A stretch of 64,000 nucleotides of DNA from Rugalucina vietnamica (taxonomy: Eukaryota; Mollusca; Bivalvia; Lucinida; Lucinidae), in contig OZ024880.1 of assembly GCA_964017185.1 (NCBI GenBank), forward strand, positions 48,355,337 through 48,419,336, in the 5' to 3' direction. The notes under the pieces are model-generated. The model did not search any database, was not told the DNA's origin, and saw only the letters and a program-made list of their open reading frames with translations. Position 1 is the first letter of the stretch, and each line of letters begins with the position of its first letter. Made by a program: the position numbers and the translations under genes. Of the stretch, positions 30,643 to 44,180 are shown piece after piece.

Positions 30643-31938
30643 ATGTCAGCTACTGCGCAAACGCCATGCGCCAAACATTTACCGCTTAGAACACTGGTAT
30701 TTGTATTCTTCGTTCTTAGTTTCCTGGTGCTTGCCGATATTTTTGTGACTTCTTCATCAAGATCATCGATACTAATCGATGTTTCAATGCGTGTTAAAAC
30801 GGACCTTTCGAACGCATTCAGGAATTTGATGAATTTCGAAAGAGTTCAAACGTTAAACGGAACCATAAACGGAACATTGTTGATTCAGCCGGTTGGGAAA
30901 GAGAGTGTTTCCCCAGGTAATGGTTTTACGTTACGATTCAACAACAAAGTTACAGTAAAACGGCTTAATGACTCATCAAGTAAAAAGGATACCATCCAAA
31001 GAATTGTAACAACGGTAAATACTGCTACAATACAATATAATGTTTTAGGAAATCCAATAATAGAAGGTGCTACAGACAATAAAAGGAAGGACAAATGCAA
31101 TAATTGTTTTAATCATAACTTCAGATATGTGATAGATAATCCGGATATTTGTAAATTGCATTCTGACCAAACTGACATAGAATTGCTAATCATTATTCTT
31201 ACCGTCCATAAAAATATTCAACAACGAAATGCACTGAGGGAAACCTGGTTGACGCATACCAAGAATAACACTGCCAATGTACGATATGCTTTTCTTCTTG
31301 GAGAGGTAAAGGATACAAAATTACAAGCAGATATTGTGAAAGAAAGTGGTGTGTATAACGATATCATTAAAGAGGATTTTGTGGATGTGTATAGCAATTT
31401 AACATACAAAACCATAATGGGATTCAAATGGGCCGCCACAAAATGTGGCGTTACCAAGGCTGTCCTTAAAACCGATGACGATATGTATATAAATGTGCCA
31501 AATGTTTTAGATATCGTTAGAAAGAATTTCAGTGCATTGATGACAAATATTGTTGGCCACTGTGCTCAAAGGGCAGGTCCTATTCGTAATCAAAAATCCA
31601 AATGGTTTGCCTCAATAAATAGCTACCCTGGAAAACTTTACCCTGGATTTTGTTCCGGAACGGGCTATTTGACAAGCTTGATCGTAGCTCGGAAAGTGTT
31701 TGAGGTTTCACCACACGTGCCATTCTTTCATTTAGAGGATGTTTATGTAGCACTGTGTATAAAGAAACTGGGATATCACCTTAAAGGTTTTCCAGGATTC
31801 AATCCCGGCCATCCTAAATTAGATCCGTGCGTTTACAACGGTAAATCTCTTGTAACGGCTCACTACATGACACCGACAATGACACGTCAGATGTGGAATG
31901 CTAGATGCATCAGAAGAACTTCCGAAACGAACAGCTGA
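30643..31938 (+). CDS. GT31-B: intact beta-1,3-galactosyltransferase-like protein
   Basis: A single-exon frame of 431 residues, a normal length for family 31. Such enzymes transfer galactose or N-acetylhexosamine in beta-1,3 linkage in the Golgi. The acceptor cannot be told from sequence. Residues 16-35 (RTLVFVFFVLSFLVLADIFV) form a type II signal anchor. A stem with NGT sites at 72 and 76 follows. The catalytic domain has RNALRETW (195-202), KTDDDMYIN (276-284, metal-binding DxD type), SGTGYLTS (338-345) and EDVYVALC (365-372), with several conserved cysteines (152, 155, 170, 268). The ATG sits in CAAAATG, a context shared with GT31-A. All key motifs are present and no defect is seen. Confidence 0.92.
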   Translation: MSATAQTPCAKHLPLRTLVFVFFVLSFLVLADIFVTSSSRSSILIDVSMRVKTDLSNAFRNLMNFERVQTLNGTINGTLLIQPVGKESVSPGNGFTLRFNNKVTVKRLNDSSSKKDTIQRIVTTVNTATIQYNVLGNPIIEGATDNKRKDKCNNCFNHNFRYVIDNPDICKLHSDQTDIELLIIILTVHKNIQQRNALRETWLTHTKNNTANVRYAFLLGEVKDTKLQADIVKESGVYNDIIKEDFVDVYSNLTYKTIMGFKWAATKCGVTKAVLKTDDDMYINVPNVLDIVRKNFSALMTNIVGHCAQRAGPIRNQKSKWFASINSYPGKLYPGFCSGTGYLTSLIVARKVFEVSPHVPFFHLEDVYVALCIKKLGYHLKGFPGFNPGHPKLDPCVYNGKSLVTAHYMTPTMTRQMWNARCIRRTSETNS

Positions 31939-40085: not shown

Positions 40086-41147
40086 TTATTTAAGTAAGTT
40101 AGTTATATGAGGAATAGTGAAGAGCTTTTGAGTTGGAACCTTACTGTTTACATAGTTTGCAATACTTTTAGTGTCTATATCTGGTACATCTGTCTTATCA
40201 TTGTTTAAAATATCAGCTACTGAGGTAAAATATATATTAAGTTTGTGGGCAATATCTTTCGACTTGGTAATACGCTGATTATAAATGGTTATTTCGTCAG
40301 GTAAGGTTTTACCTAAAGTTTTTGCATCACCATTTACTGCGCGAAGGTGTACCCAGATACGTTTAGTGTCTTTGGACTTAGTTATGGACCCAGAGAAATA
40401 TCTACGTTTAACTGTACGAATAAGATGTCTAACTTTATTACGATATTGCCTATAGTCTTCCCACTGCTTTAAACGCTGGCAATTATCCCGCAGTCTTTGG
40501 TTTAGAGAAATTTCTGGCGTAAACCACTCAAGAAGGCCTTTAGCTTTGATCCGTTTAGTTTTTATGGGAGCAAGTTTATCTTTATGTTTATAAATAGTGG
40601 CCGACCAAACGTCGACGGTATTTGTGTGACTAGTCTCGAAGGTGTCAAGATCACTAGCGAGATCAGCAAGAAACTTGGTCTCATCAAAATGCTTATAATT
40701 GCGGAAAGAATTCAGTGTATGCATGTTTTTGATCAATTTGCGATTTACTTTTCGCGAGAGACAGACTGGGAAATGGTCACTTATTGATAGCTTATACACA
40801 TAGCAGTTGGAAATATTTTCCGGGTTAGACACGTAAATGAGATCAATAATAGTCGCGACAGTCTCTGTGACTCGCGTAGGTTCCGTAACTATTTGAGAAA
40901 GGTCAAACAATTGTAACGTTATCAAATGGATCCATTTATTATTGGTACACAGATTAAGATCAATGTTGAAGTCTCCCATCAAAATTAATTCTAGGCCCGT
41001 CGATTGCGTTATGGAAAGCTCTTCATCGAAGAGATCGATCCAGTAGTTTTCTGAACTGGGTGGACGATATGCTGAACATATCAGGACATGTTTACTATTC
41101 GGCAGTTCAATTTCCATACAGATAGTTTCAGTTTTTGAAAGTTTCAA
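40086..41147 (-). pseudogene. LINE endonuclease C-terminal half and linker
   Basis: 353 open codons with CSAYRPPSS, LILMGDFNIDL, IIDLIYVSNPENI and ISDHFPVCLS, which are the C-terminal motifs of APE-like LINE endonucleases, followed by a basic linker toward the reverse transcriptase. The N-terminal part lies in another frame upstream (41422-41228). Confidence 0.88.
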
Positions 41148-42117: not shown

Positions 42118-43314
42118 ATGCCGAATTGCTCGAATAAGTTGTCAGTGAGGACGTTGGTTATTGTGTTTTTTACTCTTTGTCTCATGGTGGTGATCCATAT
42201 TTCTCTTACTACATCATTAAAGTCTTTTCTCAACATAGACGTTGCTGTGCGCATTCTCAAGAATCTTTCAAACATCAGAAAATTGTCAAAGTCCGGCACT
42301 TTAAAGGAAAACGTAAGTGACACTTTGGCTCTTCAGACTGATCGCCAATGGAATGTGTCCAACGTTGATTTACTGCCTGTTTTGGATAAAGTTTCGACCA
42401 GCCATCCACATGAAGAAGTGACCATAATGGACAATCATCATAGAAGTATAAACATAATAAAATCATCCAACAGTGCGTCAACCACGAAACGGAAAGACGA
42501 ATGCAATAATTGTTTTACACATAATTTTAAATACGTGATAGATAATACGGATATTTGCAACCTTTATTCTGGCCAAATCGAAATCGAATTGCTTATTCTC
42601 ATTCTTACCGCCCATAGCAATGTTCAACAACGAAATGCATTGAGGGAAACCTGGTTGACGCATACCAAGAATAATACTGCCAATGTACGATATGCCTTTC
42701 TTCTTGGAGAGGTAAAGGATACAAAATTAAAAGAAGATATTGCGAAAGAAAGTGGTGTGTATAACGATATCATTAAAGAAGATTTTGTGGATGTTTATAG
42801 CAATTTAACATACAAAACCATAATGGGTTTCAAATGGGCCGCCACAAAATGTGGCGTTACCAAGGCTGTCCTTAAAACAGATGATGATATGTACATAAAT
42901 GTGCCCAACGTTTTAAACATTGTTAGAAACAATTTTACTTCTTTGCAAACAAGCATAGTTGGTTCTTGTAAGAACGGTGAAGGGCCGATACGTAACCCAA
43001 CCTCAAAATGGTTCGCATCAATCAATAGTTACCCAGGAAAGCTTTATCCAGGGGTTTGCTCCGGAACAGGATACTTGACAAGTCTAAATGTAGTTAGAAA
43101 AGTGCTGGAAATTTCCCCTCAGGTGCCATTCTTTCATCTAGAGGATGTATATGTCGCGTTGTGCATTCAGAAACTAGGGTATCACGCGAAATCATTCCCA
43201 GGGTTTAACCGCCTACGTCCTGAATTAGATGCATGTTTATTCAATGGAAAATGGTTAGTGACAGCTCACAATATGACTCCGGCGATGATCAGACAGATGT
43301 GGAATGATAAATGA
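42118..43314 (+). CDS. GT31-C: beta-1,3-galactosyltransferase-like protein with MITE-made C-terminus
   Basis: Single exon, 398 residues. A hydrophobic signal anchor near residues 9-28 (VRTLVIVFFTLCLMVVIHIS) is followed by a stem only weakly related to GT31-B. The catalytic domain has RNALRETW, KTDDDMYIN, SGTGYLTS and EDVYVALC, so all core motifs are present. Bases 42620-42907 are almost identical to GT31-B while both sides are far more diverged. The stop TGA (43312-43314) takes its T from the target duplication and its GA from the first bases of an M1 MITE. GT31-B goes on about 10 residues beyond this point. The lost tail lies outside the core motifs, so activity may be retained (inference). 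Confidence 0.9.
   Translation: MPNCSNKLSVRTLVIVFFTLCLMVVIHISLTTSLKSFLNIDVAVRILKNLSNIRKLSKSGTLKENVSDTLALQTDRQWNVSNVDLLPVLDKVSTSHPHEEVTIMDNHHRSINIIKSSNSASTTKRKDECNNCFTHNFKYVIDNTDICNLYSGQIEIELLILILTAHSNVQQRNALRETWLTHTKNNTANVRYAFLLGEVKDTKLKEDIAKESGVYNDIIKEDFVDVYSNLTYKTIMGFKWAATKCGVTKAVLKTDDDMYINVPNVLNIVRNNFTSLQTSIVGSCKNGEGPIRNPTSKWFASINSYPGKLYPGVCSGTGYLTSLNVVRKVLEISPQVPFFHLEDVYVALCIQKLGYHAKSFPGFNRLRPELDACLFNGKWLVTAHNMTPAMIRQMWNDK
43309..43312. repeat. 4-bp duplication AAAT, left
   Basis: Identical AAAT at 43547-43550 on the other side of the M1 element. Confidence 0.8.
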
Positions 43315-43546
43315 GCCGTCTCATGGGAAAACCAACAATCTGCATAGGCGAAAACAAAGACGCAGATCAGCTTCGCGGTAACCGCGAAGCTGATCAGCGC
43401 CTTTGATTTCGCTACTCGGATAGTACAATTCCTCTTCTACTTAAATCCGAAATTTCAAGCTTCTAGCTCTCTTCTGTGCTTGTACAGGCCGGTTTGTGTC
43501 GCACCTGTTCGGAAAACACATTTTTGGTTTTCCCACGAGGTGGCTC
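43313..43546. mobile_element. M1 MITE that truncates GT31-C
   Basis: GAGCCGTCTCATGGGAAAAC to TTTTCCCACGAGGTGGCTC, with hairpin CAGCTTCGCGGTAACCGCGA and perfect AAAT duplications. Reading across the empty site, the gene would continue DKCILNSSKP and stop, comparable with the ARCIRRTSETNS end of GT31-B. Confidence 0.92.
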
Positions 43547-43550
43547 AAAT

Positions 43551-44180
43551 GTATTTTAAACAGTTCCAAGCCCTAAACCTGACTTACCAATATTAGTACT
43601 ATAGACACAACTAGTACTGTAGACTCAGCTACATGCACTCTAGTACTATAGACACAACATACTTCAAATTCGCTTTTTTGACCATTGTACCAGCTTTTTG
43701 AAGTAACTTCATTTGTTTGATATTTTTGATTTCGCAGTGCGTTCCTATTTTCTGCCCAATGCTGTCCCAATATAAGATTTGGTGGCTTATCTTCGTCAAG
43801 GAAGATGTCTGAGAAGACGAGTTATTCTTTTATTACACACATGCATTTTTGTGGTCATGTCTGTTTGGAAGACTCAAGGACACTCTATCTCTCGATAGAG
43901 TGTCCTTGGAAGACTGTAGAATCTTTTGAATCTTTTTCATTCATAGATGGCTGAGCTGAAATTTCGGCCAGAAACAAACTCAGACTAGCTGTTGACTGGG
44001 ACGCTAAGCCACAATAAAACAGGCAAAAGCTGTTGATATGTACCAACCTCGCCTAAGGCATTATGAGCAGGTAACATTAAAACCAATATGACCAATCTTG
44101 CTAATCAAAGCACTGACCTTGATTGCTGAATTCTTCAAATGAAAAGGTCAAATAAACTCAAAGTTGCAGTCCTAACTATA
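43551..44180. other. No gene recognised
   Basis: Short repeats of AGTACTATAGACACAACT at 43595-43650 and an inverted pair GGACACTCTATC / GATAGAGTGTCC at 43888-43910. Otherwise unremarkable. Confidence 0.5.

Follow-up and report, generated by a model that had tools for sequence, protein, structure and literature searches.

A transposon end and its target duplication together form the stop codon of a GT31 glycosyltransferase gene

The stop codon of GT31-C, a glycosyltransferase gene in the 64-kb window analyzed here (the whole stretch C12:48355337-48419336, from a genome of 1.09 Gb in 47 contigs), lies across the edge of a mobile element. We conclude with high confidence that a recent insertion of this element, M1, at an AAAT site made the TGA codon and cut off the tail of the encoded protein. 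Coordinates without a contig prefix are window positions, on the plus strand unless stated otherwise.

The GT31-C stop codon and its junction

GT31-C is an unbroken open reading frame of 398 amino acids (42118 to 43314) that matches the Pfam domain Galactosyl_T (PF01762) at 161.8 bits, well above the cutoff of 23 (E value, 2.2e-47). By direct reading, the protein ends in RQMWNDK and the final codons are GAT AAA TGA. The TGA occupies positions 43312 to 43314. Its T (T43312) is the last base of the left AAAT copy of a target duplication (43309 to 43312), and G43313 and A43314 are the first two bases of M1, a 234-bp miniature inverted-repeat transposable element (MITE) at 43313 to 43546 (GAGCC...GGCTC), so that two of the three stop codon bases lie within M1. 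The right AAAT copy follows at 43547 to 43550. The original prediction that the stop consists of the T of AAAT and the GA of M1 is thus exact to the base, and with a target duplication whose last base is T and an element whose first bases are GA, the insertion itself wrote the in-frame TGA. The displaced old tail (43550 to 43576), now 3′ of the new stop, reads TGT ATT TTA AAC AGT TCC AAG CCC TAA (C I L N S S K P stop). This bears out the reading of the empty site as DKCILNSSKP followed by a stop, which is TAA.

M1 has the features of a MITE: it is short, present in high copy number, and without coding capacity, and it carries terminal inverted repeats and a target duplication of fixed length. 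Frames that enter its consensus from either edge reach at most 51 codons. The terminal inverted repeats of the GT31-C copy have 31-nt arms that are 84% complementary, the left at 43312 to 43342 and its partner at 43517 to 43547 on the minus strand, each arm as reported including one flanking base; an internal inverted repeat (43348 to 43412) has 32-nt arms that are 91% complementary. The 4-bp ANNT duplication is reminiscent of Sola-type elements.

The empty site in paralogs of the same genome

For the empty-site comparison we used paralogs in the same genome, where GT31-C has 76 protein matches, and a query in which the GT31-C flanks were joined after removal of M1 and one AAAT. This query ran across the join without a gap in its alignments to L012 (188 bp, 82.4% identity) and to L019 and L013 (184 bp, 81.0% each); the alignment to L017 (187 bp, 80.7%) had a single gap, located before the join. 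When M1 was left in place, the matches to all four broke at the element. An extra short block of 31 to 46 bp at 78 to 87% identity matched in the 3′ flank of L012, L017, and L019; the corresponding match in L013 (32 bp) was weaker. Since M1 has many near-identical copies elsewhere and its removal restores a gap-free alignment at the join, this arrangement is not due to chance. The claim that a MITE made the stop and cut an otherwise open tail is therefore backed by the target duplication, the element family, and the empty-site paralogs together.

These four loci are copies on chromosome 16 and are the best comparators for the GT31-C tail. Their empty sites read on for 10 residues, in L012 as DKCISNNSKSQT (ending CISNNSKSQT), in L013 as DKCASNRSKHKT (CASNRSKHKT), in L017 as DKCVSYNSKSQT (CVSYNSKSQT), and in L019 as DKCVANSFKPQT (CVANSFKPQT). 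At the position of the GT31-C TAA they have CAA (L012, L017, and L019) or AAA (L013) and so end two residues later. The loss of about eight residues put forward originally is accordingly correct for the present GT31-C sequence (8 residues) and too low by the nearest paralogs (10 residues). Because the M1 copy is young, the TAA in the displaced tail more likely predates the insertion than follows it. The paralog GT31-B (30643 to 31938; 431 amino acids), whose tail is intact (WNARCIRRTSETNS), had been proposed as the comparator. It does line up, but its tail, CIRRTSETNS, is a more distant match to the joined flanks (69.9% over 156 bp, versus 81 to 82% for the chromosome 16 copies). L017 and L019 (C16:17412662-17473522) have interrupted frames beside intact GT31 copies; they may be pseudogenes, or else an intron or insertion may break the frame.

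The T|GA junction in the M1 family

A 280-base query spanning the insertion site gave 5,936 candidate places in the genome, of which 40, including the GT31-C site, were scored and were 94 to 100% identical. In fetched DNA, an exact 4-bp target duplication flanked 40 of 50 distinct near-complete M1 copies, which had mostly been chosen for likeness to the GT31-C copy; the duplication was AAAT in 32 of those 40 and has the form ANNT in other copies, and the next-best length was 2 bp (5 of 50). All 50 had a T directly before the first base. Genome-wide, the exact 30-base 5′ end of M1 occurs 7,939 times, with a T before the GAG in 7,669 cases (96.6%) and a fit to ANNT in 7,184 (90.5%). When both ends were counted, TGA was formed across the junction in 199 of 210 distinct M1 ends in the fetched DNA. 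As the T|GA junction is family-wide, the TGA is a property of M1 and not a peculiarity of the copy in GT31-C.

Only two of these 199 TGA-bearing ends close a frame of at least 100 codons. One is GT31-C, and the other is L041, with a frame of 134 codons that is open to the edge of its stretch. When the M1 consensus preceded by AAAT was placed in a coding frame, one frame of three stopped immediately, and the others added 22, 27, 35, or 51 residues, depending on frame and orientation. The window contains about 15 M1 copies or fragments, so finding M1 close to any given gene is expected. At C1:5868883-5926297, six same-strand M1 5′ ends, each preceded by ACAT, are spaced about 10 to 16 kb apart, an arrangement that looks like a larger unit repeated in tandem.

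A mirror case among other GT31 gene ends

We examined 50 GT31 loci and placed the stop in 43; six had no protein match, and one had no stop in its stretch. The 43 include three partial or interrupted frames (L032, L017, and L019) and L120, which continues the gene of L019. In two of them, GT31-C and L022, M1 adjoins or overlaps the stop; in one more, L109, it lies 267 bp downstream of the stop. Because GT31-C was the starting case and only L022 is new, we claim no enrichment of M1 at GT31 stops.

L022 (C9:55814139-55814930, minus strand; examined stretch, C9:55812639-55816430) is the opposite case. Four of its five close sisters (L024, L025, L026, and L028) end in KY followed by TAG, and the fifth, L023, ends in KYWVRPN, with TGG in place of the TAG. 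In L022, an M1-type element follows straight after the TAT codon. It is 83% identical to M1 over 224 bases, in the opposite orientation and with A rather than C as its last base; by eye, it is bordered by ATAT on both sides, and the old TAG now lies behind it. The frame enters the element as EPVREKTNNLGSDQV and then stops, so that the stop has been displaced and 15 element-coded residues have been added. In L022, the junction T falls at the third position of a codon, so the protein is extended rather than cut. This copy is older than the M1 copy in GT31-C.

Sequence 3′ of the new stop

M1 had also been proposed to provide the 3′ untranslated region (UTR) of GT31-C. This is predicted to be so for the first 232 bases past the stop and fails for the rest, as M1 has no poly(A) hexamer: neither AATAAA nor ATTAAA was found within the GT31-C copy, and the first downstream of the stop is at 44013. 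A MITE in a 3′ UTR is reported to repress translation (PMC5338036). GT31-C likewise has a MITE in its predicted 3′ UTR, but in GT31-C the element also alters the predicted protein. In the 3′ flank, an 18-bp unit, TAGTACTATAGACACAAC, occurs three times within positions 43594 to 43658, one copy being 83% alike; this stretch is mostly a gap in the alignment with the four chromosome 16 paralogs.

If splicing removed M1 from the mRNA, the TGA would go unused. Judged by eye alone, GGTTAGT at 43253 resembles a splice donor and the CCAG that ends at 43693 an acceptor, and the two would span the element. Such a splice would nevertheless drop conserved C-terminal codons of GT31-C, both GT31-B and GT31-C are uninterrupted frames, and at the M1 borders (AAAT|GAGCC and GGCTC|AAAT) there is, again by eye, no GT-AG pair with which splicing could recreate the exact old tail. 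We consider this explanation highly improbable.

Loss of a conserved C-terminal cysteine

The first residue of the lost tail is a cysteine. Of 29 paralog loci fetched, 22 had a match that reached the site, the rest being L032, which is an N-terminal piece, and six distant members with matches that stopped short of it. The tail cysteine was found in 21 of the 22, one residue past the place of the new stop in 20 paralogs and three residues past it in L021; the sole tail without it is that of L036 (30% identity). In a 20-row alignment, it is present in all 18 rows that have letters there (GT31-C and the fragment L030 have none), and its putative former disulfide partner, Cys373 of GT31-C (codon at 43234 to 43236), is present in 19 of 19 rows, GT31-C included.

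Disulfides are reported for human B3GALT5 at Cys52-Cys146 and Cys276-Cys307 (PMC11969544) and for the catalytic domain of human B3GNT2 at Cys138-Cys235 and Cys367-Cys397, Cys397 being the final residue of the crystallized constructs (PMC7948737). GT31-B Cys396, the equivalent of GT31-C Cys373, aligns to chain position 246 of B3GALT5 structure 8zwp as counted on the alignment; with an offset of 30 this would be native Cys276, and by the same offset chain Cys116 would correspond to Cys146, a residue named in the B3GALT5 paper. Like GT31-C, B3GALT5 and B3GNT2 belong to Pfam Galactosyl_T, and by alignment their three other catalytic-domain disulfide cysteines correspond to GT31-C residues 147, 245, and 373. 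Unlike GT31-C, they have the C-terminal disulfide cysteine, which GT31-C lacks because of the insertion. The terminal cysteine lies about 4 residues past the conserved Trp in the GT31 paralogs here and presumably about 10 to 11 residues past it in the human enzymes. A structure prediction for GT31-B and three window sequences (pLDDT, 31.9; pTM, 0.17) was too low in confidence for use. Given this difference in spacing and the poor model, we infer the equivalence of the disulfides from homology; GT31-C would most likely lack the C-terminal disulfide and be left with one unpaired cysteine.

Age of the insertion and its probable consequences

The M1 copy in GT31-C differs from a consensus of 40 copies at 6 of 234 positions and from a consensus of 72 other full-length copies by 7 differences, of which 1 is private. 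The insertion is young, with one private change in 234 bases. Dating by the 6/234 distance was rejected since it overstates the age: five of those six changes, as well as the seventh seen with the 72-copy consensus, are common to other copies. The synonymous divergence of GT31-C from L010 to L013 is 0.76 to 2.5, varying with method and region; with M1 so near its consensus, the insertion is recent relative to these duplications. We also rejected the open frame as a sign of selection since the insertion. In simulations of neutral frames with substitutions only, 86%, 59%, and 37% were still open after 5, 16, and 31 changes, respectively, and an insertion this young means that the open frame of GT31-C says nothing about function.

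In the explanation that we propose, M1, a short nonautonomous DNA transposon, inserted recently at an AAAT among the final codons of a GT31 β-1,3-glycosyltransferase gene that looked intact. Translation would end at DK, at the in-frame TGA of the junction, leaving the former tail, which is 8 codons long in the present sequence and 10 by the nearest paralogs, unread, 235 further bases past the stop. The residues removed include the C-terminal cysteine that, judging from homology, closes a disulfide to the counterpart of Cys373 in human relatives. The most likely result, to which we give about an even chance, would be a truncated enzyme of lower stability, its loss being tolerated because the family is large. 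GT31-C would then be a copy with mild damage, or one at the start of decay into a pseudogene, rather than an improved enzyme.

Two other readings accept the same insertion and differ on what it means for the enzyme. The truncated protein might be fully functional, its short C terminus neutral or favored and the tail dispensable. Tail length past the site does vary among the paralogs, from 2 to 32 residues (37 with the element-coded part of L022); DDD and EDV, which we take to be the catalytic motifs, are intact; and catalytic-region dN/dS is low, at 0.07 to 0.20 by three methods against L010 to L013 and at 0.04 to 0.09 against L014, a comparison in which one method failed and dS was saturated. 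What varies so little is the cysteine at the head of the tail, however, and dN/dS reflects the long span before the insertion, with the values for L010 and L011 affected by the probable conversion tract described below. We regard full function as somewhat unlikely. It is also possible that GT31-C was already dying when M1 landed, a harmless passenger. The TAA in place of the CAA or AAA of the nearest paralogs indicates that the tail had changed by some route, and L017 and L019 are other members of the family with interrupted frames. Yet that TAA alone would cost only two residues, past the conserved cysteine, and GT31-C keeps 398 open codons, its other invariant cysteines, and its catalytic motifs, which makes prior decay unlikely.

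Relation to other element-derived protein ends

A transposable element insertion that gives a gene a new protein end or 3′ UTR is a well-known kind of event; Drosophila CHKov1, for instance, is truncated by Doc. There, as in GT31-C, a mobile element sets the protein end and gives the adjoining 3′ sequence. The same applies to a short TAF8 isoform that is reported to arise from an Alu insertion (PMC12871804). What distinguishes GT31-C is a stop split between the target duplication and the element edge, with the insertion in the coding exon itself. The GT31-C insertion is a clear example of this known kind of mutation, to which it adds a clean empty site within one genome, the loss of a conserved cysteine, a family-wide T|GA junction, and the opposite case of L022. 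In one gene family, a stop made by a transposon and its target duplication is thus resolved to the base, with empty sites in paralogs of the same genome, a clear predicted structural cost (the loss of one disulfide), and a related gene with the reverse outcome. Since T|GA is general to M1, the share of genes with M1-set ends could be counted in an annotated genome that carries M1.

A broader conjecture, which we consider improbable, is that M1 acts as a mobile stop codon. Its ANNT target and GAG...CTC ends write TGA inward from both sides in nearly every copy, and coding insertions would stop translation immediately in one of the three frames and lengthen the protein by 22 to 51 M1-coded residues in the other two. 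Present in thousands of copies, M1 would then supply this genome steadily with new protein ends, both outcomes being seen in the GT31 family (GT31-C cut, L022 extended) and some such ends perhaps being kept in working enzymes.

A probable conversion tract shared with GT31-B

GT31-C residues 170 to 262 (42625 to 42903) are nearly identical to GT31-B residues 193 to 285 (31219 to 31497), probably through gene conversion. In 30-codon windows, DNA identity between the two genes is 93 to 97% over GT31-C residues 166 to 255 and 49 to 78% before residue 150 and after residue 270. The 93 codons of the tract hold 9 synonymous and 3 nonsynonymous differing codons, versus 51 and 35 in the next 136 codons. 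The contrast in synonymous differences between the tract and the sequence after it is strong for GT31-C and GT31-B (Fisher P = 1e-9) and for GT31-C and L010, a close relative of GT31-B (P = 3.5e-5), and P lies between 0.03 and 1 in six other pairs. From about residue 301 on, GT31-C is closest to L012 and L013. GT31-C is thus a mosaic, with a probable conversion tract in common with its neighbor GT31-B about 11 kb away. Upstream of GT31-C, a 353-amino-acid frame on the minus strand (40086 to 41147) looks by eye like a retroelement endonuclease fragment.
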